Source: a virus
Reading direction: 5' to 3' (one strand)
Virus record (IMG/VR): IMGVR_UViG_3300030012_004221
Span: 62,001 to 126,000 of that record
DNA: 64,000 nt
Shown: positions 17,531-64,000 of the stretch, one piece after another
Position numbering within the stretch: position 1 is the stretch's first letter
Layout: each line of letters starts with the position of its first letter
The notes under the pieces: generated by a model
The model's input: the letters and a program-made list of their open reading frames with translations, nothing else
Database searches by the model: none
Told to the model about the DNA's origin: nothing
Program-made: the position numbers and the translations under genes

Positions 17531-19180
17531 TTAAAAATCAAGATTATCTAATGGAACTTCGGTTTCAGGAGTTGGTTCTTTTTGAGTTGGGTGATCAACT
17601 ACAACACATTCTGTTAAAAGAATTGTTCCAGCTACAGAAGCAGCATTTTCAAGTGCTGTTATAGTTACTTTTGTTGGATCTAAAATCCCTGCTTCTTCCA
17701 TATTTACAACTTCTCCTATTTCTAAATTATAACCTGCCCAATAATCATCTCCAGAATTACAAAGATCATTAGCTATCATTTCAGCTTGAGTATTATCATA
17801 TCCTGCGTTAACAAGAATCTGAATGAATGGTTTTCTACATGCTTTCTTTACAAGAACAGAACCTAAATCATCATTTGATAACCCATTAGAAGCATATAAT
17901 AATGCAGCTCCACCACCAGGAAGAATTCCTTTATCTAAAGCAGCTTTAGTAGCATGTAATGCATCATCGACTCTATCTTTCTTTTCTCTCATTTCTATTT
18001 CAGTATGTCCACCTACATGAACTATTGAAACCCCACCAATCATTTTAGCTAAACGGTTTTGTAAATGTTCTATAATATAAGGAGTATCTTCTTTATCAAT
18101 TTGAACTTGAAGATCCTTTACTCTATTATTTATAGCTTCTTCATCACCTTTACCATCAACAATTGTTGTTTGTTCTTTAGTAATAGTTACAGCACGTGCT
18201 TGTCCAAACCATTCCCAACTAAATTTATCAAGTTTCATTCCTTTGTCTTTATCAAACACAGTACCACCTGTTAATGTAGCAATATCTTCAAGAATTAATT
18301 TTTTTCTTTCTCCAAAGTCTGGGGCTTTAACTGCTGCTACTTTAAGGATCCCTCTTGCTTTATTAACAATAAGAGTAGCTAACGCTTCTCCTTCAATATC
18401 ATCAGCAATTATAAGTAATGATTTATTAGCATTAGAAACACTTTCTAAAATTGGAAGTAAATCTTTTACTTGTGTAAATTTATGATCTGCAATTAAAATA
18501 TAAGTATCTTCTAATGTACAACTCATATCTGCATTATTTGTTACAAAGAAATGTGATTTATATCCTCTGTCAAATTGCATACCTTCTACAGTTTCAAGAT
18601 AAGTATCTCCTGATTTTGATTCTTCAATGTGTACAACCCCATCTCTACCTACTTTTTCAATAGCAGTAGAAATTAGGTTTCCAATTTCAATATCATTGTT
18701 TGCTGATATAGTTGCTATTTGTTTGAGTTGTTCTTCGGATGATATTTCTTTAGAAATATTTTCTCTAACAACATTGATTACTTCTTTTACAGCTTTATCA
18801 ATACTACGTTTTATCCCATTAGCATTTTCACCATTATTAAGATGTTTTAATCCTTCTCTAATTAATTCACGTGCTAAAAGAGTTGATGTTGTTGTTCCAT
18901 CACCTGCTTTTTCATTTGTTTGTTTAGCAGCTTGTTTTACTAATTGAGCTCCTAAATTTTTAACTAAACCATGAACTACAATATTTTTGGCTACAGTTAC
19001 ACCATCTTTAGTGTTTGTTGGTCTATAATTATCATCATAACCATTATGATCTATTAATACATTTCTCCCATTAGGGCCTAATGTACATACAACAGCATCA
19101 GCTAGAATATTAATTCCCTCCATAACTTCTGCTCTTGCTTTAGGTCCAAATTTTACTAATTTATTTTTTGGTATCGGCAT
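17531..19180 (-). CDS. groEL: GroEL-type chaperonin
   Basis: A 549-residue group I chaperonin, the normal length. The ATP-site motifs are intact: CTLGPNGRNV, TKDGVTVAK, GDGTTTSTLLAREL and RVDDALHATKAALDKG with PGGGAALLYA. The C-terminus lacks the usual Gly-Gly-Met tail and instead ends in acidic VPLDNLDF. Together with the GroES gene 11 bases upstream it should form a folding cage for phage proteins. Most T4-like phages encode only a co-chaperonin (gp31) and use host GroEL, so carrying both is unusual. Confidence 0.97.
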   Translation of the reverse strand: MPIPKNKLVKFGPKARAEVMEGINILADAVVCTLGPNGRNVLIDHNGYDDNYRPTNTKDGVTVAKNIVVHGLVKNLGAQLVKQAAKQTNEKAGDGTTTSTLLARELIREGLKHLNNGENANGIKRSIDKAVKEVINVVRENISKEISSEEQLKQIATISANNDIEIGNLISTAIEKVGRDGVVHIEESKSGDTYLETVEGMQFDRGYKSHFFVTNNADMSCTLEDTYILIADHKFTQVKDLLPILESVSNANKSLLIIADDIEGEALATLIVNKARGILKVAAVKAPDFGERKKLILEDIATLTGGTVFDKDKGMKLDKFSWEWFGQARAVTITKEQTTIVDGKGDEEAINNRVKDLQVQIDKEDTPYIIEHLQNRLAKMIGGVSIVHVGGHTEIEMREKKDRVDDALHATKAALDKGILPGGGAALLYASNGLSNDDLGSVLVKKACRKPFIQILVNAGYDNTQAEMIANDLCNSGDDYWAGYNLEIGEVVNMEEAGILDPTKVTITALENAASVAGTILLTECVVVDHPTQKEPTPETEVPLDNLDF

Positions 19181-20380: not shown

Positions 20381-21115
20381 TTAAAATTCTGTTTCTGCTT
20401 TCCTTACTATAAAATATCTAGAAGAAATATCATCTAGTTTAAAATCCAATTGGATTAGTCCCATACTACTTAAATACATTTTACCACCTTCCATATCTTT
20501 ATTTGCTTGAAGGATGGTTTTAAATGTATCTGAGTTGAATGGTAATTTAATATCTTTTTCTTTAATATCTCCTTTAACTTGATATGTTATCTTATTATTA
20601 TGTCCAGATTCATCTCCAAACACAAATTCAACTACATCCTCACCATCTAAATTTGTAGTTGTAGTTACTAACATGTTATCAACTTGGGATAATGCACTTT
20701 TTGCTCTAATAATATTTTCAACATCTTCAGATGTTAAATCTAATTCAACAACCCATTCTGGGACTGTTACTTCACCTACCTTATTTATTAATAAAGGATC
20801 TGATAAAGCATAATTTAAGTTAAAATTTAAATCAGATATTTTTAATTTAGTATAAATTGCATTATTTTTTTCTAGCTCTAGTAATAAATCACCATTACAA
20901 ATATTAATTAAACTTAATAATTTTTTAGTATCATAAATGGCTAGTTTACTATTTTCTAATTGAAAATTATCACACGCAACAGAACCTATAACATCTTTTG
21001 TAGGTGTCATAAAATTAATTCCTAATTTATTATCCTCAATTACCCATTTTACAGCTTCATTTACTCCAAGGTAATATTTGTTAATAATTGATTGTATTGT
21101 TAATTTATTTATCAT
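20381..21115 (-). CDS. 45: sliding clamp, gp45-like
   Basis: A 244-residue protein of the size of T4 gp45 (228), with the two-domain beta-rich pattern of gp45-type clamps (IDKxx-like early segments, LSDPLLINKVGEVTVPEW between domains, and a C-terminal SSRYFIVRKAETEF). It would form a trimeric ring on DNA that tethers the polymerase and, in T4, activates late transcription. It overlaps the carbamoyltransferase gene by 4 nt. The polymerase genes lie upstream in the same unit. Confidence 0.85.
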   Translation of the reverse strand: MINKLTIQSIINKYYLGVNEAVKWVIEDNKLGINFMTPTKDVIGSVACDNFQLENSKLAIYDTKKLLSLINICNGDLLLELEKNNAIYTKLKISDLNFNLNYALSDPLLINKVGEVTVPEWVVELDLTSEDVENIIRAKSALSQVDNMLVTTTTNLDGEDVVEFVFGDESGHNNKITYQVKGDIKEKDIKLPFNSDTFKTILQANKDMEGGKMYLSSMGLIQLDFKLDDISSRYFIVRKAETEF

Positions 21116-22785
21116 TTTTTAGTATACATTTTATCATTTATTACTAGTTTATCTACTATTCCGTTGTCCAAATGTACGAAAGCTTCTTTGGGACGACAAA
21201 CTATAGGTTCACCATGTACGTTAAAGCTAGTATTTAGCAAAACAGGAATATCTGTTATTTCTCTAAAACAATCTAACAAATTATAAAATTTAATATTTGA
21301 GTCTTTAGTTACTATTTGTATTCTTGCTGTTTTATCTACAGGATGAACTACAGCTGGGATTTTATCATACCACTCTTTTCTTGTATCATATAACATAGTC
21401 ATGAATTCAGCTGTGTATCTAGATTTATTAACATGAAATACAGTATCAGCATAATTATCTAATACTACAGGAGCAAAAGGCATATTATCATTTCTTTGTA
21501 ATCTATCGTTAACTTTTTTATATGTACCTGGAACACTTGGGTCAGCAATTATACTTCTATTACATAATGCTCTAGGACCATGTTCAGATCTTCCCTGAAA
21601 CCATCCTATTACTTTACCTTCCTTTAAGTCATAAGCTAATGAAGATTTATCATATGGTCTAATATGATATTTTTCATGATCATCTTTTACTTCCCCAAAT
21701 GCAATTGATTTTTGAGAGACTGGGGTGTTGGGGTTTATTGGGAATTTATTATCATAAGATGTTCCTAAATAAACATCTTTTAATCTAAATGGTTTAAAAT
21801 CTGAGTTGTGTTTTTTATAAACAGCTAAAGCTGATCCCAAAGGTAAACCTTCATCTCCCATAGGTGGAGCAACAAATACCTCATTTACCCACTTTAATTC
21901 GTTAATTTTTTTATTTAGTTTTACATTAGCAAAAACACCTCCTGCTAAAGCAATATTTTTAGCTTTAGGGTATTTATTATGGTAATAATCTATTAATTGT
22001 AGTACTTTTTTTTCAAAAACTAATTGGCCATTATAAGCTAAATCTTCTGGTTTGAATGAATGAGGACCATCACATAATAATGGATTATTATTAACAAATA
22101 ATTTATAAAAATCTTCATATATTTTTCGTGTATTTCCTACATCCCCCATAGGGTGGTCTAAATCAGTTTGACCTGTTTTAGATATAGTAACACACTCGTT
22201 AAAAGATTCATATATCCAATCAACATATTCTCCATGAGATGATAATCCTACAATTTTACCTTCATCTTTTAACCTTTTAAACCCTAAAAGTTCAGTAAGC
22301 ATACAATAATAATGACCTAAAGATTTAGTATTTAAAGAATGTTGTTGAATAAGTTCTAAATTACCTTTTTTTCCTACATAACACCTCGCCCAATCATACT
22401 CTCCAGCTCCATCAATAGAAATTACAAGTGTATCTTTTTTAAACCCACTACAATAATAAGCTAAATTACAGTGAGCTTCATGATGGTTAATATGAATCCA
22501 TTTTTCTTTGGGAAAAGGACCTAAACCAATTCCTTCCCATATATTTTTACTTATTTTTAAAGGAAAATTAGTTGTTAAGTAATCTATTTTATTCCAATCA
22601 AAATTTTTATTATACCAAACATTTTGTCCTGATTGGTAAGGATATCTAAATATGTTATTAAAATAATCTTTATAAGTTCTAATCCTATTAAACCTTTCTT
22701 CTTCAAAAGCAAAAATAGGTTTACCATCTTCTAAATATGCTATACCGCAACTATGTTCTCCCCCACTTAAAGCTAATATTCTCAT
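21112..22785 (-). CDS. NodU/TobZ-family carbamoyltransferase
   Basis: A 557-residue carbamoyltransferase. The N-terminal Kae1-like domain shows LALSGGEHSCGIAYLEDG, HHEAHCNLAYYCSGF and SIDGAGEYDWA; the conserved GRSEHGPRALCNRSI and LLNTSFNVHGEPIV mark the C-terminal half. Members transfer a carbamoyl group from carbamoyl phosphate via a carbamoyl-adenylate to a hydroxyl. In phages related enzymes can act on modified nucleobases or sugars. Here it is embedded between clamp and polymerase genes rather than in the sugar cluster, which suggests a DNA-linked substrate but does not prove it. Confidence 0.92.
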   Translation of the reverse strand: MRILALSGGEHSCGIAYLEDGKPIFAFEEERFNRIRTYKDYFNNIFRYPYQSGQNVWYNKNFDWNKIDYLTTNFPLKISKNIWEGIGLGPFPKEKWIHINHHEAHCNLAYYCSGFKKDTLVISIDGAGEYDWARCYVGKKGNLELIQQHSLNTKSLGHYYCMLTELLGFKRLKDEGKIVGLSSHGEYVDWIYESFNECVTISKTGQTDLDHPMGDVGNTRKIYEDFYKLFVNNNPLLCDGPHSFKPEDLAYNGQLVFEKKVLQLIDYYHNKYPKAKNIALAGGVFANVKLNKKINELKWVNEVFVAPPMGDEGLPLGSALAVYKKHNSDFKPFRLKDVYLGTSYDNKFPINPNTPVSQKSIAFGEVKDDHEKYHIRPYDKSSLAYDLKEGKVIGWFQGRSEHGPRALCNRSIIADPSVPGTYKKVNDRLQRNDNMPFAPVVLDNYADTVFHVNKSRYTAEFMTMLYDTRKEWYDKIPAVVHPVDKTARIQIVTKDSNIKFYNLLDCFREITDIPVLLNTSFNVHGEPIVCRPKEAFVHLDNGIVDKLVINDKMYTKK

Positions 22786-42052: not shown

Positions 42053-43768
42053 TTAACCATCACAAGATACACATTCAGCCATTCTTGATCCTAAATCACC
42101 TTTAATCACTGAGTCTGTTCTTAAATAATAAAACGTTTTAATTCCTAATTTCCAACCTTCCATATGAACTTGATTTATCCATTTTGGAGAATCATTAGGA
42201 TCAAATGATAAATTTAAAGATTGTGTTTGGTCAATATATCTTTGTCTTATAGCAGCTTGTCTAACTAATTCTAACTGATTAGTTTCTGGGAATGTTAAAA
42301 ATAATTCTTTTTCATCTGGGGTTAAAATTTCATCTGGTAGGTTTTGAACTGAACCTCCATCCTGAAGCATTTGATCCCACCATTTTTGTTTATTTTCACC
42401 TTTTCCTTTTAATATATTTTCTAATACTTTATTTTTTCTAATAAAAGTACCTTTAGCACCATTAAAAGTGTAAATGTTAGCAGGTAAAGGTTCAATACCT
42501 GCTGATATACCACCACAAATAACTGAGTTAGAAACTGTAGGTGCAACTGCTAATAAATGAGTATTTCTCATACCCGTACCTCTACACCACATTGGTTCAC
42601 CATATTCTTGAGCTAAATCCATAGATGCTTTTTCTGCTTTACTACTGATGTCTCGGAATATAGTATGTGTCCAAGCTGTAGACGCTATAGAATTGAATGG
42701 TAATCCTTTTTGTTGTAAAAACGTGTGCCATCCCATTACACCTAAACCTAATGCTCTACCTTTTTTAGCATGATTATGAGTTCTTCTTAATGAATCCTTA
42801 CCATTAGATTTATCAATAAATTCTTGCATTACACCATCTAAAAACCAAGTTGCTAATTCAACAGTATCTGTATCTTTCCAATCTTCATATTTAGCTAAGT
42901 TTAAAGAAGATAAACAACAAATAAATGAATGTTCTTCATCTGTAAATAATGTAATCTCAGAACATATATTAGTCATAGACACATCTAAATTATTTAATCT
43001 ATAAGCAATAGGATTATCTTTATTAACATTATCCTTATACATTATATAAGGTTCACCTGTTTCCATTCTTGCTTTTAAAACAGTAGCCCACCTACTCATA
43101 GCTTCAGAGTCTCTTGCTTCTAGTTTTCTCATAAAATTATCTCCTACAACTACACATTGGTGTAAGTTTAAACACTGTCTATTAGGATCCCCTTTAGGTC
43201 TTCTAATTTGCAAAAATTCATCTATATCTGGATGTTCAATATCTAAATTAACAGATGCTGCTCCTCTTCTTACATTACCTTGATTAGTAGCTATAATAGA
43301 TGAATCATAAATTTTACACCAAGGTACTACACCTTCACTTTTACCATTACCTGCTATTTCAGTACCTCTAGGCCTAATTCTTGAAACACCAATTCCTACA
43401 CCACCACCTTTAGAAGTTAATCTCATTAATTCAGCGTTAGTTAAACCAATACCTCTTATTGAATCAGGAGTATCAATTCCATAACATGAAATTGGTAAAC
43501 CTCTATCTGTACCCATATTAGAGATAACAGGTGAAGCTAAACCTAACCAACCATTCCAAATAATTTTATAAAATTTATTTTCTAATTCAGGTTTTTTTAA
43601 TCTAAATGCTGCTGCCTTAGCTACTCTTCTATAAGCTTTTTTTACATCTTCTCCTGGGAGTAAATATCCTTTAGATATTGTTGCTAAAGAAATTTCATCC
43701 ATCCATTCTGGGTAGTTTTTTCCTGCTTCCCAACTTGTATAATCTACTTGTAATGCGTTATTTTCCAT
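42053..43768 (-). CDS. nrdA: ribonucleotide reductase large subunit
   Basis: The product is 571 residues if it starts at MENNALQVDYTSW, which immediately follows the nrdB stop. An upstream in-frame start at 43873 lies inside nrdB and is rejected. Conserved parts: LPISCYGID (first redox Cys), TNICSEITLF (radical-site Cys with Asn and Glu), FICCLSSLNLA, and a C-terminal MAECVSCDG (CxxC that re-reduces the site). The N-terminal ATP cone is absent, as in small class I enzymes. It makes dNDPs with NrdB. Confidence 0.95.
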   Translation of the reverse strand: MENNALQVDYTSWEAGKNYPEWMDEISLATISKGYLLPGEDVKKAYRRVAKAAAFRLKKPELENKFYKIIWNGWLGLASPVISNMGTDRGLPISCYGIDTPDSIRGIGLTNAELMRLTSKGGGVGIGVSRIRPRGTEIAGNGKSEGVVPWCKIYDSSIIATNQGNVRRGAASVNLDIEHPDIDEFLQIRRPKGDPNRQCLNLHQCVVVGDNFMRKLEARDSEAMSRWATVLKARMETGEPYIMYKDNVNKDNPIAYRLNNLDVSMTNICSEITLFTDEEHSFICCLSSLNLAKYEDWKDTDTVELATWFLDGVMQEFIDKSNGKDSLRRTHNHAKKGRALGLGVMGWHTFLQQKGLPFNSIASTAWTHTIFRDISSKAEKASMDLAQEYGEPMWCRGTGMRNTHLLAVAPTVSNSVICGGISAGIEPLPANIYTFNGAKGTFIRKNKVLENILKGKGENKQKWWDQMLQDGGSVQNLPDEILTPDEKELFLTFPETNQLELVRQAAIRQRYIDQTQSLNLSFDPNDSPKWINQVHMEGWKLGIKTFYYLRTDSVIKGDLGSRMAECVSCDG

Positions 43769-43769
43769 A

Positions 43770-44756
43770 TTAAAATATTGATGCAGCGTCCCAATTTTGA
43801 ACACCTTTTGAATAATTAGTAACTCTATTTGCAAAGAAATCTGTATGTTGTTTACCTGCTGATAAACTGTCAAACCAGCTCATTCTTTGTACTGCTTCTG
43901 TATCAATACCATTTACGATAGGATCATAACCTAAATCACCCATTTTAGTATTTAATCTATGTTTAATAAATGATACTAAATCATATTTAGTACATCCTTC
44001 TAAATCACCCATTTCATAAACTTTATCAATAAAATCTAATTCTAGTTTTAAAGATAAACGAGCTGCTTCTTCAATTTCTTCTTTTAATTTAGGAGTATCC
44101 AATTCTGGATGTTCTTTTAATAATGTTCTAAATAACCAACAACCAGCATCTGAGTGTAAGGATTCATCTCTAATACTCCATTCAACTATTTGTCCTACAC
44201 CTTTAAGTTTATTTTGTAATTTAAATGAAAGTAAAACTGCAAATGAGGAAAATAAATTTACACCTTCTGTAAATGCTGAAAATATAGCTAATGATTTTGC
44301 TCTTTCATGCCAATCAGGAGTACCATCATGAGAATCTTTAACAGCCATTAATGTTTCAATTTTTGCTGCTGTTGTTTCATCTTCTAAAAATTCTGCAAAA
44401 TTATCTAATCCTAATTCTTCATTTAATAAAGAATAAGCTTCGGCATGAATAGTTTCAAAACAACCAAAAGTAACAGCCATAGCAATAACTTCAGGTTTTC
44501 TAAACCATTTAGTAACTAAAGTTGACCAATAATCATTTACTACAGTCTCTGTTTGGGCAAATCCCTTAAGTATTGAACCTACAATATTTTTTTCAGTTTC
44601 AGATAAATTTTGTTTCCAATCGTTTACATCTGCCATCATTGGTACTTCTGTCCATAACCAATGGGCTTGCTGTTGTTTCATGTAGAAATCAAATGCTTCT
44701 GGGTATTCAAAGGGTTTATATACGATACGTTCTTGTAATAATGATTTTTTTGCCAT
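43770..44756 (-). CDS. nrdB: ribonucleotide reductase small subunit
   Basis: A 328-residue class I beta subunit. The di-iron ligands are in VNDWKQNLSETEKNI, FGCFETIHAEAY and EWSIRDESLHSDAG. The usual tyrosyl radical position is not certain from inspection. The C-terminal AASIF should dock to NrdA. It is one base upstream of nrdA. The partner thioredoxin may be the gene at 31022. Confidence 0.95.
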   Translation of the reverse strand: MAKKSLLQERIVYKPFEYPEAFDFYMKQQQAHWLWTEVPMMADVNDWKQNLSETEKNIVGSILKGFAQTETVVNDYWSTLVTKWFRKPEVIAMAVTFGCFETIHAEAYSLLNEELGLDNFAEFLEDETTAAKIETLMAVKDSHDGTPDWHERAKSLAIFSAFTEGVNLFSSFAVLLSFKLQNKLKGVGQIVEWSIRDESLHSDAGCWLFRTLLKEHPELDTPKLKEEIEEAARLSLKLELDFIDKVYEMGDLEGCTKYDLVSFIKHRLNTKMGDLGYDPIVNGIDTEAVQRMSWFDSLSAGKQHTDFFANRVTNYSKGVQNWDAASIF

Positions 44757-57346: not shown

Positions 57347-57355
57347 TATAAATAT
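57347..57355 (-). promoter_or_regulatory. late-type promoter motif ATATTTATA
   Basis: AATATTTATAATAAAAC on the minus strand, 27 nt before the 98-aa gene and directly after the tape-measure stop. Confidence 0.5.
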
Positions 57356-60066
57356 TAACCTATTTTAGAAGTTGCCAAAGCCATTGACTTACCTGCTTTA
57401 GCACCATCAATATACACATCACCACCTTTTTCAATGGCTAATCTTATTGCTTTAAGTTCTGATATTATTTCAGCATTACCTATTTCTTCTTCACCACCTC
57501 CAAATAATCCTCCAATAGCACTACCAATTCCACCTACTACTGAACCTATTCCACTTGCAACACCTAAAGGATCTGCAACTGAAGCTATACTTGGTAACAT
57601 ATCAGCTAATTTACTTAATGGCATAACTACTTCATCTTCACCACCTTCACCAATTATAGCTGGTGTACCTCCTGCTTTGGCAGAAATAATTCCTCCTTCT
57701 GCTAAACCAACTGCTCCAGTAACTAAACCTGCTAAATCAGGAGATTCAACATTTGGAATATCTACTAATGGGATTGTATTTAGTCCATCAATAATTAAAT
57801 TAATAGCTCCCATTACTAAATCAGTTAATACTTGGAAAGGTGCTAATAGTAATCCAATAGCTCCACTAGCAATCATTTTAAATCCTTCTTGAAAATCACC
57901 TTGGAATATTTTGATAAAACCTCCAAATATACTCATCATACTTTGTACATTTTCTATTATTAGTCTAATTGCGGCTTGCATTGGAAGTAAACCAATAGAT
58001 ATAATACTACCTAAAATACTTCCTATACTACTAAATATACTACCCATTTCCGTTCCTTCAGGTAATATTTCACTAATCATTTCACCTATTTGTTTGAAAA
58101 GATCCATTATCAACATAGTAGGTTGAAGTAAAGTTTTCATAATTGGAGCTAGTAATCCACCAAGTAAATCACCAAGTCCTTTAACTATAGGCATCATTGG
58201 TTTTAATGTGTCTTCAAGTACTGTCATTAACAAATCAACAATAGGCATTAAAGGCTCTAATATCATTACAAATAAACCTTGAAGTTTTTCAGTAACTGCA
58301 GCTAACCTTTCTGTAGCACTTTGAGACTCCATTTGAGCTAAAACTCCAGCTTCTGCTAATTCTTTTTTCTTTTCTTCTGTTAATAAACCTGCTGCTTGTA
58401 ATCTATTAAATTCTGCTTGAGCTTCACTTGCTGTTTTAATATCACCCCCAAATGCTTTTTGCATAGCTGCAACTTTTTCTTGCTCTACTAACATTCCAGC
58501 CATGTCTTCTCTTGACATACCAAATGCTTTAGCTAATGCTTCTTGTTGAATAACATTCATTTCACCAAATTCAGCTGCTGTCCCTACTTCTTTTCTTATT
58601 TCTTGGGCTAGTCGAGCTTGATCACCTGCTAATGCTGCTGCTCTAGCATTTTCTAAATTAAGTTGTTTACCTGTTAATAACTCAGCTTCCATTTCAGCTG
58701 CTATTGAAGATTCAAATTCTAATAAACTACCCTGAACACCTTCTAATTGTGCAGCACTAATTCCAAGCATTTTTTGTTGAAATACTTGATTAGCCATTTC
58801 TTTAGTGTTCATTCTATTTGATAAAAGTTGGGCTTTAGACATTTCCCCAATTCCTTCTTGAATATCTTTAGCATTAAAAGAAACTTTATTTTGGGCATTT
58901 AATTCTTGGGTTACTGCTGTTGCACTGATAAGTTGGTCTTTAATGGTTTTACCACCTATCATAGCTCCTTCAGCAAATTTTTTCATTGCTCCTTCTGATA
59001 ATCCAGTTCTTTCAGATACTGAAGCAAATTCAGCTGCTATATCACCAGCAAATTTAGCAGATGTACCAAATATTTTATTTAGTTGCATCTGGGATTTTAC
59101 TATATCTTGACCTGAGACAGCTATGTCATCAAAGTCCATAGCTACTTCATTAGACTCAAAAACTAATGCTTGTCCTTCTTTTGCAGATATACCTAAATTT
59201 TTAGCAACTTCACCTGATTGTTGATCAACCATTTTAAATGCCTTAACAATCTGATCAATAGCTAATGCTATTAAAGCATAAGGTCCTAAAGATTTCATTA
59301 GGTTTTTACCTAAACCCTGAGCTAAATGGTTCATTGCCTGCATTTTAGAGACATTTCCACCACTAGCTTTAACCATTGCTCTAGTATCTTTTAGAGCATC
59401 TCCAATTCCTAGTCTATCACCTATACCTGAGGGTAAAACTTTATTCAAACCATCAGCAGAAGCCCCAATGAGACCCATTTGTTTTTCTACTTTTATTTCT
59501 TCCTCAACTACATCTTCTAAATTCTTAGTAATTTGGCCATATAAACCATCAGTTCTATTTAAAGCACCTTGTATATTATCTAAAGCAGCTTGTTCTTTTT
59601 TATTTAATCCTTCTAAGGCTGCCTTATTTTGTAATAAAGTTTTTGATAATTCTAAATTTTTCTTTTCTGCTAATACTTTATTTTGAAGAGCTACTAAGTC
59701 TCGTGAATTAGCTTCTTTTAAACCCGATTGAATATCAACTAAATCTCCAGTTAATGAAGTTAAATTATTAGCTGCTTTAACAGCCATTTTATACCCTAAG
59801 TTATAGTTTTGGATTTCGTCATTTACAGCTCCAATTGCTCCAAATAACTCTTTAGTTTCAGCTTCTAAATCTCTAGTAGCTTGTGTAGATTCTTCAATTG
59901 ATTGGTTGATATCATCATAGATATCCTGAATTTGTTTTAAGTCAGCTATAGAAGTTTCAAAAGTGGGCTCTGGAAACCTAATAGCTTTCCCCATTTTTGC
60001 GTATTCCGCATTAATCTCCTGGACGAGTTTTTTAGCCCTTTCTAAATCTTTGTTGTTTAGTGCCAT
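57355..60066 (-). CDS. tape measure protein
   Basis: A 903-residue protein with a long N-terminal coiled coil (about 1-230), a central section with TMP-like helices and the C-terminal hydrophobic stretch (about 640-780, e.g. LLMTVLEDTLKPMMPIVKGL; LLAPIMKTLLQPTMLIMDLF) and a Gly/Ile tail. This is the usual composition of tape measure proteins. It follows the tail-assembly chaperone pair, as in most long-tailed phages. Its length sets the tail length, so about 130 nm is expected by the usual 1.5 Angstrom per residue rule. Confidence 0.85.
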   Translation of the reverse strand: MALNNKDLERAKKLVQEINAEYAKMGKAIRFPEPTFETSIADLKQIQDIYDDINQSIEESTQATRDLEAETKELFGAIGAVNDEIQNYNLGYKMAVKAANNLTSLTGDLVDIQSGLKEANSRDLVALQNKVLAEKKNLELSKTLLQNKAALEGLNKKEQAALDNIQGALNRTDGLYGQITKNLEDVVEEEIKVEKQMGLIGASADGLNKVLPSGIGDRLGIGDALKDTRAMVKASGGNVSKMQAMNHLAQGLGKNLMKSLGPYALIALAIDQIVKAFKMVDQQSGEVAKNLGISAKEGQALVFESNEVAMDFDDIAVSGQDIVKSQMQLNKIFGTSAKFAGDIAAEFASVSERTGLSEGAMKKFAEGAMIGGKTIKDQLISATAVTQELNAQNKVSFNAKDIQEGIGEMSKAQLLSNRMNTKEMANQVFQQKMLGISAAQLEGVQGSLLEFESSIAAEMEAELLTGKQLNLENARAAALAGDQARLAQEIRKEVGTAAEFGEMNVIQQEALAKAFGMSREDMAGMLVEQEKVAAMQKAFGGDIKTASEAQAEFNRLQAAGLLTEEKKKELAEAGVLAQMESQSATERLAAVTEKLQGLFVMILEPLMPIVDLLMTVLEDTLKPMMPIVKGLGDLLGGLLAPIMKTLLQPTMLIMDLFKQIGEMISEILPEGTEMGSIFSSIGSILGSIISIGLLPMQAAIRLIIENVQSMMSIFGGFIKIFQGDFQEGFKMIASGAIGLLLAPFQVLTDLVMGAINLIIDGLNTIPLVDIPNVESPDLAGLVTGAVGLAEGGIISAKAGGTPAIIGEGGEDEVVMPLSKLADMLPSIASVADPLGVASGIGSVVGGIGSAIGGLFGGGEEEIGNAEIISELKAIRLAIEKGGDVYIDGAKAGKSMALATSKIG

Positions 60067-60098: not shown

Positions 60099-60124
60099 AA
60101 AGGCATCATTTTTTTGATGCCTTT
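60099..60124 (-). terminator. hairpin at the end of the tail chaperone gene
   Basis: Ten perfect pairs (AAAGGCATCA with TGATGCCTTT) and a 6-nt loop, overlapping the stop codon of the frameshifted product. The bases after it (CGATATT on the minus strand) do not form a U-tract. It may stabilise the upstream message or slow polymerase. Confidence 0.5.
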
Positions 60125-60432
60125 GATACATAGTTAGGTGTTGATTTTAAAGATTTATTGGTTGGAGGGTTAAATGCTTGTTTTGGTATTTTTGATTTAT
60201 CAGGATTTGCTAAATCAATATTAGTCCCCTTTCCTTTCATTTTACCCTTCATGGCTTCAGCCTCTTGCTTTTTAATATCACTAATTTGTTGGAAAGTAAA
60301 TTTACGTAACCAAAGAGGCATATTATAGACGGTATGAAAGTCATACCCACCACCACCAAAATAGACTATTTCGTTAATTTGTTTAAATAACGATACTCTA
60401 AACTGTGGCGTCAGGCCAAAAAAAGTTGACGG
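60106..60432 (-). CDS. frameshift extension of the tail assembly chaperone
   Basis: An open frame without its own strong start that continues the upstream chaperone gene if ribosomes shift +1 or -2 within the overlap 60398-60432. The frame opens just after a TGA at 60433-60435 and runs to 60106. It encodes FRVSLFKQINEIVYFGGGGY, then DFHTVYNMPLWLRKFTFQQI, then a lysine-rich tail. A 71-aa version from an internal ATG (60321) would drop the best-looking part. In lambda the G-GT pair has the same position before the tape measure gene. The fusion would be about 345 residues. Confidence 0.7.
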   Translation of the reverse strand, partial: PSTFFGLTPQFRVSLFKQINEIVYFGGGGYDFHTVYNMPLWLRKFTFQQISDIKKQEAEAMKGKMKGKGTNIDLANPDKSKIPKQAFNPPTNKSLKSTPNYVSKASKK

Positions 60433-61144
60433 TCATCGGGAGGGTTGCTTCCTCCTGTATGCCGTCGCTACTCTCAAAATTAAACTTTAAATCTACATCC
60501 GGTTGGAATGCTTTTATGTGTTCTCTTAATGCTCTTGAATCTCTTGCTAAAAAGTAATTATCTACAAATTCACGTATTGATTTTTTATCTTCTTGGCCAT
60601 CAACTGATAAAATTGTGTGTTTTAGACGTGTTGATAATTCTGGATTACTATTTTTATTTAATTTTTGTAAACCTTTTATTTCTTGTCTAATTGCTTTATC
60701 TTCTTTACCAGTAGCTAATTTAAATTCTATTCTAGTCCCATTTGTAGGTAATGTAAATTCAAATCTATTTACGTGTTTTTCCAATAATTCACTTTCATTT
60801 ATTTCTCTAGACTCTAATGTAGTTAAATCTATTGTTACTTCTTCACCTTTATATTGAAAAGTGTAATCAGCCCCATATCCTAAAACTCTAGCTGCTATCA
60901 TAATTGCATTTTTATCACCTACTACTAGATCTTCATAGTTAATTTTAGACACAATTAATGATTTTAGTAATTTATCAATTACAATCCCTTGTTTAATATA
61001 GTTTTGATTGGTTAATATATCTTCTTCTTTAGCTGTCATGTATTTCATTTCAACCTTACCTGAAGATAATGGATTGTCTTTTGGGTAAACTAATCCTTTT
61101 GATGGTAAATCTACTTGTTCAGTAGGAAATTTAAAATCTGCCAT
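60398..61144 (-). CDS. tail assembly chaperone / gp26-like baseplate protein
   Basis: A 248-residue protein with VDLPSKGLVYPKDNPLSSG and VEMKYMTAKEEDILTNQNYI, features of the T4_baseplate (gp26-like) family of T4-type phages. Its last ten residues (VNFFWPDATV) lie in the zone where the frame can change. Position between the tube gene and the tape measure gene is the usual one for tail assembly chaperones. An early stop gives the short form and the frameshift a long form. Confidence 0.75.
   Translation of the reverse strand: MADFKFPTEQVDLPSKGLVYPKDNPLSSGKVEMKYMTAKEEDILTNQNYIKQGIVIDKLLKSLIVSKINYEDLVVGDKNAIMIAARVLGYGADYTFQYKGEEVTIDLTTLESREINESELLEKHVNRFEFTLPTNGTRIEFKLATGKEDKAIRQEIKGLQKLNKNSNPELSTRLKHTILSVDGQEDKKSIREFVDNYFLARDSRALREHIKAFQPDVDLKFNFESSDGIQEEATLPMTVNFFWPDATV
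60418..60424 (-). other. candidate slippery heptamer for frameshifting
   Basis: Seven consecutive T residues in the message (AAC TTT TTT TGG) sit inside the 35-nt window where the zero frame has not stopped and the +1 frame is open. A +1 or -2 slip here joins NFF to GLTPQFRVSL. A -1 slip would hit TGA within three codons. Confidence 0.6.
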
Positions 61145-61245: not shown

Positions 61246-61734
61246 TTAGAAATTTAATACGCAGTAATCCATTCCGATTGTTAAATCAATGTTTTGAGCT
61301 TCACCATCAGTATCCCAATTCATATCAGCAAATGAAGCATCTTTAATAAATGCACCTTTTATAATCCATTCTGATACTACATCACCTACTGGTCCTAATA
61401 CATCAATTGTTAAATCTTTCTTATAGAAATCAGAATATCCAGCTCTACCTGTTACTGATTCATAATGTAATCTAACCCATTCCATTACTGCCTGAGCACC
61501 TGAAGGAGTAATTGGATCAAATAATTGCATTGTGATGTCATTCCATCTCAATTTACCTTTTACTTTTCTATAAGTGTTAATATGGTTTAGTACAATTTCG
61601 TCTTGTGCAAATCCAATTCCACTTACACCTTTAATTATATAAGTTGGAAATCCGTCAACATACATTACAAACCTATTTGCTACTTTGGGCTCAAAAGCTG
61701 TGAAAAATATTTCGTTTGGGTCTAATACTGCCAT
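61246..61734 (-). CDS. 19: tail tube protein, gp19-like
   Basis: A 162-residue protein of T4 gp19 size (163). NRFVMYVDGFPTYIIKGVSGIGF and GKLRWNDITMQLFDPI then EWIIKGAFIKDASFADMNWD are the tube-fold signatures of contractile phages. It stacks in rings to form the inner tail tube. It has its own late-type motif and is closed by a strong terminator, so it is probably made at high level. Confidence 0.93.
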   Translation of the reverse strand: MAVLDPNEIFFTAFEPKVANRFVMYVDGFPTYIIKGVSGIGFAQDEIVLNHINTYRKVKGKLRWNDITMQLFDPITPSGAQAVMEWVRLHYESVTGRAGYSDFYKKDLTIDVLGPVGDVVSEWIIKGAFIKDASFADMNWDTDGEAQNIDLTIGMDYCVLNF

Positions 61735-61788: not shown

Positions 61789-64000
61789 TTATGCAGGAAA
61801 TTCAGCTCCTGTTGGTAGAATATTGAAATCTAGGTATATAAATTCTGCCGTTTTAGTTGGTTGAATAAATATTGCACCTCTTAATTCATTTCTATCAATT
61901 ACTTCAGGTCCATTATTTGAATCATCCATTTGTACTTTAAAGGCAAATAAACCTTGTCTTTGTTGTACTGATTCTAAATATGGATTTACTTGTCCTAAGA
62001 ATACATTTCTAGTTGCAGCTGTATTTTGTTCAAATACTAAATTATCTGAAATTTGTGAAATGAAGTTCTTAAGTGCAATTAATAATCTTCTAACATTTAC
62101 TCTGTCTAAAGCACTTGCTTGTGTTTGTAGTGTTTTCTGTCCAAATACTACCACTCCTCTTCCTGGGAATGTAGCTATTGGATTTACTTTACCTACATAT
62201 AAAGCATCTCTATTAGATTGAGTTAATTTTCTTTCTGCTTGAACTACTACTCCTAATCCACCTCTGTTTATACCTGCTGGTGCAAACCAAGCTTCTGCTG
62301 TTCTATCATTAGCTGCATAAACACCTGGGATTAATGTTGAAGCTGGAACCCAAACTCTTTGTCCTGAATCTGGATCAGTTACCATACACCAAGGCCAATA
62401 TGCTGCTGCATATGAAGTATCTAAACTTGCTGCTGTTGTAGTAATCGCTGTTATCGATGAGTCATAAGCTTCAAGATCTAATGTAATAATATTATCACCT
62501 CTATTTTCAGTATTTGAAATTAAAGTATTTAATGTTGAAGTATAACCTGATTGGAATAATCCTGGAACAGAAATTATATTATATTGATAATCATCTTTAT
62601 TTGCTAATAAATTAATTGCATCTGTATAATTTCCACCTACTAATCCTTGTGTATCATTCTGATCAATTTTTTCATAGTATTTTCCTTGTCCAGTTAATAT
62701 TGATCCTTGAGCATCTCCAAATGAACCTGAACCTGCTATTGGAATTGAAGCTGTAAATTGAGATTTTGCAGTTCCACTATTATCTAAGTAATCTGGTGTT
62801 TTAAAGTTTACAGATTTTACTCTTACGTATCTTGAAGCATTTGCATAAGAACCAGTTGTTTGTAGATATGGTTCTGCTGTTCCAGATCCTAATAGTGTTT
62901 CTGTTTGATCACCAACTATTCTTGATATATAATTTGGTGATTTAGGATCTAATGATACATTATTAAAGCTTTCAAGTACTGATTTAGCTCTAGTTGTATC
63001 ATTACCTTGTCTAATAATTAAACTAAATGTACCAGATGAAGTATTTGGTGAGGTAATTTCCCATCTTAAATTATCTGTAGTACCAGTTGAAATAGCACCT
63101 TGAGAATTTAATGTTCCTGCATTATTCATAATTTCACCTTGACCAATTGTTTCTAATGTGAAAGCATTTGCATCTGTAATATCAGCATCTACTAATGTAA
63201 ATGTTAAAGCTGTATCTGCATTACCAATACTTGCTGCAGGTACTGTAATTACATCACCTACTGCATATCCTGATGCTGATCCACTTGCTACAATAGCTGT
63301 TGGAAATGTTTGTAAATCTGCATTTGCGATTGTAATAATAGGATCTGTACCACCAGCTCCTGAAGCACCTAATGATCCTGATGCTATAATTAATGTATCT
63401 CCCGCATTATATCCTGAACCTGTTGCTACTACTGTAACTGAAGTAATTGATGTAGCACCTGCTACTACGACTGTAGCTGTAGCACCTGTACCAGCACCTG
63501 AACCACTTGTTAAAGCTACTGTATAAGTGTCTGCTACTAATCCTGCTGGTGGAGTTGATACTGTTAAATCTGCACTTTGGCTAAATTGACCACTACCTGA
63601 TGATAGTGTTACATTAACTTTTAACCCTGTTGATGAACCACCTGTAGTAGCTACATCATCAAACTGTCCCGCTGTTGCTCCTAAAGCACCACCAATTCCA
63701 GTTCCTGCATTATATGAACCAAATAAATTAGTTGTATCTGGTATATCACCACTTTCTTGATCATTAAATATTGTTGATGAAGTTGCTGCTGTAAATGAAC
63801 CAGAAGCTACTCTAGTAACAATTAAAGAAGTACCTCCATTTTGGAAATAATTGTAAGCTGATATAGATGTTAAAAATGTGAATTCTTCCTTTTGGTTTGT
63901 TGAACCACTTTCAAAAGTAGTACCAAAATTAGCTTGATACTCACTATAAGAAGTAATAAGCTTAGGAATATTTACTCGACCTTTTACTGTAGGTCCAATT
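61789..64000 (-). CDS. 18: tail sheath protein, gp18-like (5' end outside window)
   Basis: One open frame runs from 61789 to the right edge of the window with no stop (at least 736 residues), so the start lies beyond it. The first visible part PKLITSYSEYQANFG and YNYFQNGGTSLIVTRVASG and the C-terminal VNVRRLLIALKNFISQISD are sheath signatures. A Gly/Ala/Ser/Thr-rich beta segment of about 170 residues is inserted between (63050-63650). It contracts during injection. An internal ATG at 63129 is not the start. Confidence 0.93.
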   Translation of the reverse strand, partial: IGPTVKGRVNIPKLITSYSEYQANFGTTFESGSTNQKEEFTFLTSISAYNYFQNGGTSLIVTRVASGSFTAATSSTIFNDQESGDIPDTTNLFGSYNAGTGIGGALGATAGQFDDVATTGGSSTGLKVNVTLSSGSGQFSQSADLTVSTPPAGLVADTYTVALTSGSGAGTGATATVVVAGATSITSVTVVATGSGYNAGDTLIIASGSLGASGAGGTDPIITIANADLQTFPTAIVASGSASGYAVGDVITVPAASIGNADTALTFTLVDADITDANAFTLETIGQGEIMNNAGTLNSQGAISTGTTDNLRWEITSPNTSSGTFSLIIRQGNDTTRAKSVLESFNNVSLDPKSPNYISRIVGDQTETLLGSGTAEPYLQTTGSYANASRYVRVKSVNFKTPDYLDNSGTAKSQFTASIPIAGSGSFGDAQGSILTGQGKYYEKIDQNDTQGLVGGNYTDAINLLANKDDYQYNIISVPGLFQSGYTSTLNTLISNTENRGDNIITLDLEAYDSSITAITTTAASLDTSYAAAYWPWCMVTDPDSGQRVWVPASTLIPGVYAANDRTAEAWFAPAGINRGGLGVVVQAERKLTQSNRDALYVGKVNPIATFPGRGVVVFGQKTLQTQASALDRVNVRRLLIALKNFISQISDNLVFEQNTAATRNVFLGQVNPYLESVQQRQGLFAFKVQMDDSNNGPEVIDRNELRGAIFIQPTKTAEFIYLDFNILPTGAEFPA

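Follow-up and report, generated by a model that had tools for sequence, protein, structure and literature searches.

A conserved candidate +1 frameshift site in a gp26/gp51-family tail assembly chaperone gene of a T4-like phage

Introduction

How can a conserved protein domain be made if it lies at the end of a phage tail gene, in another reading frame and with no start codon before its middle? This question is raised by a 64,000-nucleotide stretch of viral DNA (positions 62,001 to 126,000 of the IMG/VR record IMGVR_UViG_3300030012_004221, hereafter the window; the record has 158,183 bases), in which a chaperone gene lies on the minus strand between the tail tube and tape measure genes. A sequence-only reading of the window had proposed a programmed +1 or -2 frameshift in this gene. 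Here, we compared the locus with those of its relatives and with known frameshift systems. Comparative evidence makes it very probable that this member of the gp26/gp51 family undergoes programmed ribosomal frameshifting of the G/GT type, which would give a short and a long form of the chaperone. The best explanation of the sequence patterns is programmed +1 slippage of the P-site tRNA, a shift of +1 being more likely than one of -2.

Results

A Conserved Slip Site near the End of the Zero Frame

The zero-frame gene (60398..61144, minus strand) encodes 248 amino acids with the C-terminus MTVNFFWPDATV directly before the stop (protein end NFFWPDATV). Another frame is open from 60432, overlaps the end of the zero frame and runs to 60106 (stop included); it can be entered only through a shift of +1 (or -2). 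The junction, GTC AAC TTT TTT TGG CCT GAC, lies shortly before the zero-frame stop and contains a run of exactly seven T (A7 on the plus strand, 60418-60424), and the frame boundaries and T run given by the sequence-only reading are confirmed. The candidate shift site is AAC TTT TTT TGG (60416..60427, minus strand), with TTT (60421-60419) in the P site and TGG (60418-60416) in the A site.

We examined the 80 closest relatives among the viral contigs of IMG/VR together with two cultured relatives, phages immuto and Mel-JY01, which gave 59 non-redundant loci; these loci are related by descent and their counts do not represent independent events. The slip site was found in 80 of 80 contigs inspected and in both cultured phages, as TTTTTTTGG in 51 and as TTTCTTTGG in 8 of the 59 non-redundant loci. 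Thus, both the overlap and the slip site proved to be conserved in the alignment that the sequence-only reading had named as a check, and the continuous frame through six or eight T that it had named as a refutation was seen in no relative. The GGCCTGA that follows the T run is nearly invariant and is read as WPD in the zero frame and as GLT in the shifted frame. Scanning 2.9 million viral contigs for the 17-mer TTTTTTTGGCCTGACGC returned at least 119 viral stretches, and all 80 that were inspected fall within the chaperone gene.

The codon preceding the T run is also constrained. Its third base is G or C in all 59 loci (about 12 expected from codon usage), with ACG and GGG taking the place of the common ACT/ACA and GGT/GGA. 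The same preference was observed in 72 of 74 further contexts from the pattern scan, none of which has a T-ending codon at this position. With T avoided, the canonical -1 heptamer T TTT TTT cannot form, an explanation that covers T only and not the avoidance of A. Synonymous constraint therefore acts at the slip site, a compact candidate for a +1 signal with high conservation.

The Extension Is Conserved as Protein

The +1-frame extension (60106..60417, minus strand; GLTPQFRVSLFKQINEIVYFGGGGYDFHTVYNMPLWLRKF..., 103 codons plus stop) corresponds to a T-like domain that is conserved in 30 aligned relatives, its invariant positions including G-L, R, G-x-G, and P-x-x-L-R. The frame is open through this domain in nearly all of the 80 relatives (L053, L063, and L073 are among the few in which it is cut or broken). 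Beyond the zero-frame stop, the ratio of nonsynonymous to synonymous polymorphism (pN/pS) is 0.39 in the shifted frame versus 1.08 and 1.31 in the other two frames, which indicates that the shifted frame is under purifying, protein-level selection. In the window, the shifted frame has no ATG, GTG, or TTG until the ATG at 60321 with which MPLWLRKF begins, midway through the conserved domain; many relatives likewise have none of these codons before the mid-domain ATG, and immuto lacks even that one. The earlier description of a compact conserved extension without a start before an internal ATG is upheld by the 30-relative alignment, the pN/pS values, and the start-codon check, and relatives with two separate, clearly started genes, which would have contradicted it, were not found.

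The Zero-Frame Protein Belongs to the gp26/gp51 Family

Profile comparison places the zero-frame product, a gp26-like (G-like) tail/baseplate-hub assembly chaperone, in phrog_150 ("baseplate hub", E 2.5e-11). On its own it scores 44.5 bits and reaches column 233 of this profile; the +1 fusion scores 51.1 bits (E 2.5e-13) and reaches column 264, extending 31 columns further. The gene is present in a single copy in the 158-kb record and is the only match to phrog_150 there. Its location between tail tube and tape measure is that of a G/GT-type chaperone. In AlphaFold2, the zero-frame part and the T domain were modeled separately. The zero-frame model has a predicted local distance difference test (pLDDT) score of 90, and among its best viral matches in BFVD are T4-like hub assembly proteins and a baseplate hub subunit of SP-15 (E 1.5e-16). 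Judged from these comparisons, the zero-frame protein is a member of the gp26/gp51 family (phrog_150). Weak matches of the extension members are to phrog_32580 (tail assembly chaperone) and phrog_634 (gp51), the latter matched by 7 of 30 members with a best value of 0.0011. A structure search with the T domain gave no useful match, and a PDB sequence search gave no match.

Candidate Frameshift Sites in Cyanophages and Distant Relatives, and Two Paralogs in T4

In T4, gp26 and gp51 are paralogs encoded on opposite strands (L083:10803-12229), gp51 bearing the extension. Both match phrog_150, the alignment stopping at column 235 for gp26 and reaching column 280 for gp51. T4 gp26 ends in ...KEFFELL, with its stop just after FF, the slip-site motif elsewhere. 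Homology links the cyanophage extension with the C-terminal end of T4 gp51 (hhalign probability 97.1, E 5.8e-11). Cyanophage P-SSM2 has an annotated 57-aa gp51 in the -1 frame of gp26, which is open from 34 nucleotides before the gp26 stop and whose junction reads AGT TTT TTC. T TTT TTC occurs without variation in the cyanophage-type loci (80 of 80) and leads into "gp51" (L090:7202-7390, L092-L171). Annotators of P-SSM2 and others have treated gp51 as a small gene of its own. Straboviridae outside the T-even group, namely Cronobacter phage S13 and Vibrio phage 6E35.1a (L301 and L302), have GAT TTT TTC and an extension in the -1 frame; in S13, no ATG lies near the junction in this frame.

Phe slip sites were also detected at the equivalent position in distant relatives, with apparent use of the -1 frame in Stenotrophomonas phage RAS14 and LR756511 and of the +1 frame in SP-15, GXN1, RM378, and LR756508. 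One frameshifted gene thus appears to be the general condition of the gp26/gp51 family, with a direction that changes between lineages. Since T4 has two paralogs and its gp26 ends at FF, these data suggest that T4 represents a duplicated form in which two genes have replaced the frameshift.

Favored Mechanism and Its Alternatives

The layout of the sequence, its conservation, the selection on the shifted frame, and the family of the zero-frame part are observed; in the model that we favor, the occurrence, +1 direction, and efficiency of the shift, a stimulatory effect of the hairpin, and the chaperone function are all inferred. The majority of ribosomes would reach the zero-frame stop and release a 28-kDa gp26-like chaperone (predicted mass 28.4 kDa). 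A minority would pause while the A-site TGG is slowly filled, with Phe-tRNA on TTT in the P site or, in the CTT variants, Leu-tRNA on CTT. The P-site tRNA may then re-pair on TTT one base forward and continue in the +1 frame, yielding a fusion with the T-like domain (39.3 kDa, 345 amino acids). If lambda is taken as a guide, coating of the tape measure protein would fall to the short form and recruitment of the tail tube protein to the long form, and both would depart before tail completion.

Several results weigh against this interpretation. The window extension aligns with the gp51 C-terminus in the right register, albeit at low probability (hhalign E 0.035 for T4 and 0.002 for cyanophage) and with one shuffled control scoring higher, and full-length profile comparison with T4 gp51 was not significant. 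Homology between the window T domain and the T4 gp51 C-terminus is weakly supported; the link is drawn from these right-register scores, the weak matches of extension members, the same gene position, and the full-length profile match. The PDB match of highest probability for the zero-frame domain is the HK97 chaperone 2ob9, a weak one (Foldseek probability 0.30, E 1.3). The remaining points concern direction, as the same fusion with one extra Phe (346 amino acids, 39.5 kDa) could arise by -2 frameshifting. On the T7 of the window, tRNA-Phe pairs two bases back as well as one base forward, and at the CTT variants the -2 shift lands on TTC, where pairing is slightly better if the tRNA has the anticodon GAG; the counterpart in phage Mu uses -2 (PMC5009743). 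However, re-pairing by +1 works at all +1-type sites tested, including those of the distant homologs GXN1 (TTC TTT CGT) and LR756508 (TTT CTA), at both of which -2 fails. UUU_CGU of influenza PA-X is a proven +1 site (PMC3498833), and no 3' structure of the type associated with backward shifts is conserved. We therefore consider -2 unlikely, although it is the most serious competitor of +1.

Explanations without a ribosomal shift are less probable still. The ATG at 60321 opens a 71-aa open reading frame (ORF), a short downstream ORF is annotated in immuto and a separate one in Mel-JY01, and cyanophages have an ATG just beyond the stop, all of which would fit two genes, with re-initiation or an internal start giving the downstream part. 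Yet this ATG splits the conserved domain in half, immuto reads FPI instead of MPI there, and the window and many relatives have no ATG, GTG, or TTG further upstream in the shifted frame. Separate initiation would also leave the invariant slip site and the dual-frame conservation of WPD/GLT unexplained, and we regard it as improbable. Much the same, or slightly less, can be said for transcriptional slippage, by which a minority of mRNAs with an altered number of U would be read in a single frame. A run of seven T in an AT-rich genome might invite it, but seven T is short for such slippage, and the run is interrupted (TTTCTTT, no more than three T in a row) in the cultured immuto and others, 8 of the 59 non-redundant loci in total, which keep the same shift; this argues against such a process. 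It would also not explain the constraint on the preceding codon and on TGG. Finally, homopolymers are prone to errors, and a sequencing or assembly indel would mimic the break. The relatives refute this and leave it a negligible chance: 80 contigs, each assembled independently, and the isolate genomes have the site at the same place, several of them as TTTCTTT. The frame break is real, neither a sequencing artifact nor a product of chance.

A 5' Hairpin in the Window Clade

We found a hairpin upstream of the slip site (60428..60466, minus strand; GACGGCAUACAGGAGG-AAGCAAC-CCUCCCGAUGACCGUC) in 12 of 12 loci of the window clade, where it ends three nucleotides (two in a few folds) ahead of the T run. 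Equal stability occurred in 0 of 797 control windows of the same genes and in 0 of 2400 synonymous versions (mean z of the window clade, -6.3). Its outer pairs are 96% retained, covariation is modest, and the score drops strongly when the position is slid; the inner stem register varies between loci. The covariation sample comprised 13 distinct sequences, the pattern-scan loci having added no window-clade members. As a family-wide feature, the hairpin was rejected, being strong only in the window clade and weak or absent in the other clades.

No conserved 3' stimulatory structure was found among the relatives, and an Rfam search gave only sub-threshold chance matches. The Shine-Dalgarno-like AGGGGG that lies three nucleotides upstream of the slip codon in prfB is absent, the window having GTC AAC. 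In most relatives, AGGAGG-like runs precede the slip site by about 27-33 nucleotides (about 60450-60457 in the window), with GAG favored over GAA at codon -30 (38 to 11, vs. 160 to 950 gene-wide). This GAG GAG was rejected as a Shine-Dalgarno stimulator, since a distance of about 27 nucleotides is too great.

Structures in the 5' mRNA are listed as perhaps stimulating +1 frameshifting (PMC5009743), and the slip site is a natural candidate for such stimulation. Flavobacterium johnsoniae is a host that rarely uses Shine-Dalgarno pairing (PMC12421855). Our hypothesis is that the hairpin of the window clade replaces the Shine-Dalgarno stimulator where hosts rarely use it. The relatives, such as phage immuto, and the low G+C content point to a Flavobacterium-type host for the window phage.

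Genomic Context

The minus-strand order of the tail genes is tail sheath, tail tube, chaperone gene, and tape measure. The sheath gene (61789..63999; phrog_23, E 1.9e-62) is truncated at the window end. The tail tube gene (61246..61734; phrog_4542, E 1.2e-21) is directly upstream of the chaperone gene and matches Pfam Phage_T4_gp19 with E 1.3e-4, under the Pfam cut-off. Directly downstream lies an ORF of 903 amino acids (57355..60066), assigned as tape measure protein; profile searches gave no convincing family match of its own, and Flavobacterium phage immuto has its annotated tail tape measure protein at this position. Our analysis supports two further claims of the sequence-only reading, namely, a G/GT-like order (tube, shifted chaperone, tape measure) in a T4-like phage and a shift other than -1.

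A possible second split gene at 42053-44756 (ribonucleotide reductase) was examined and rejected as a frameshift candidate, as it consists of ordinary adjacent small and large subunits. The window also encodes a GroEL-type chaperonin (17531-19180, minus strand; phrog_5725, E 6.6e-146) and a Nol-like carbamoyltransferase, a modification-type gene (21112-22785, minus strand; phrog_1601, E 8e-93).

Discussion

Atkins et al. name T4 as the exception to an otherwise wide conservation of the G-T frameshift in long-tailed phages (PMC5009743). If our interpretation is true, T4 would be only a duplicated form of G/GT, many of its relatives would still be shifting, and the essential gp51 would gain a role as the equivalent of GT. 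Sullivan et al. describe cyanophage and marine vibriophage gp51 as missing the first ~200 residues, with no frameshift mentioned in the text examined (PMC3037559); our interpretation would explain why these residues are missing in cyanophage gp51. No report linking gp26/gp51 to frameshifting was found in the open-access literature searched, and the novelty of this link is provisional. A broader scenario would combine two proposals: that the ancestral gp26 of the T4 superfamily was frameshifted, with switching between -1 and +1 and loss of the shift in T4 by duplication, and that the hairpin of the window clade stimulates +1 shifting at the position of the prfB Shine-Dalgarno element, suiting Flavobacterium-like hosts. 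It is plausible, with the balance tipped slightly against it as a whole.

Comparison with Known Systems

The tail assembly chaperone frameshift of lambda gpG/gpGT was reportedly characterized by Xu, Hendrix and Duda. Like lambda G/GT (PMC5009743), the window gene lies between tube and tape measure, would have short and extended forms, and has an extension without its own start and a slippery site near the end of the short frame. Unlike in lambda, the window shift would be into +1, not -1, at TTT/CTT TGG, and the zero-frame protein is a 248-aa member of the gp26 family in a T4-type myophage group. The site also recalls that of prfB (RF2): the +1 site CTT TGA (PMC12421855) resembles CTT TGG, with CTT or TTT in the P site, a following T, and a slow A-site codon starting with TG. 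On the other hand, the A-site codon of the window is the sense codon TGG rather than a stop, and the hairpin takes the place at which prfB has AGGGGG. Influenza PA-X (UCC_UUU_CGU; PMC3498833) shares a P-site UUU and a +1 shift, with TTC_TTT_CGT in the GXN1 homolog; it belongs to a eukaryotic virus, and the A-site codon of the window differs.

Within its own family, the window protein shares phrog_150 with T4 gp26/gp51, whereas T4 has two paralogous genes on opposite strands and the window has one gene with a candidate shift. Its organization resembles that of gp26 plus the short gp51 of cyanophages and marine vibriophage, which have an extension of the same kind at the same place in the gene; the cyanophages would shift by -1 at T TTT TTC, and the window phage by +1.
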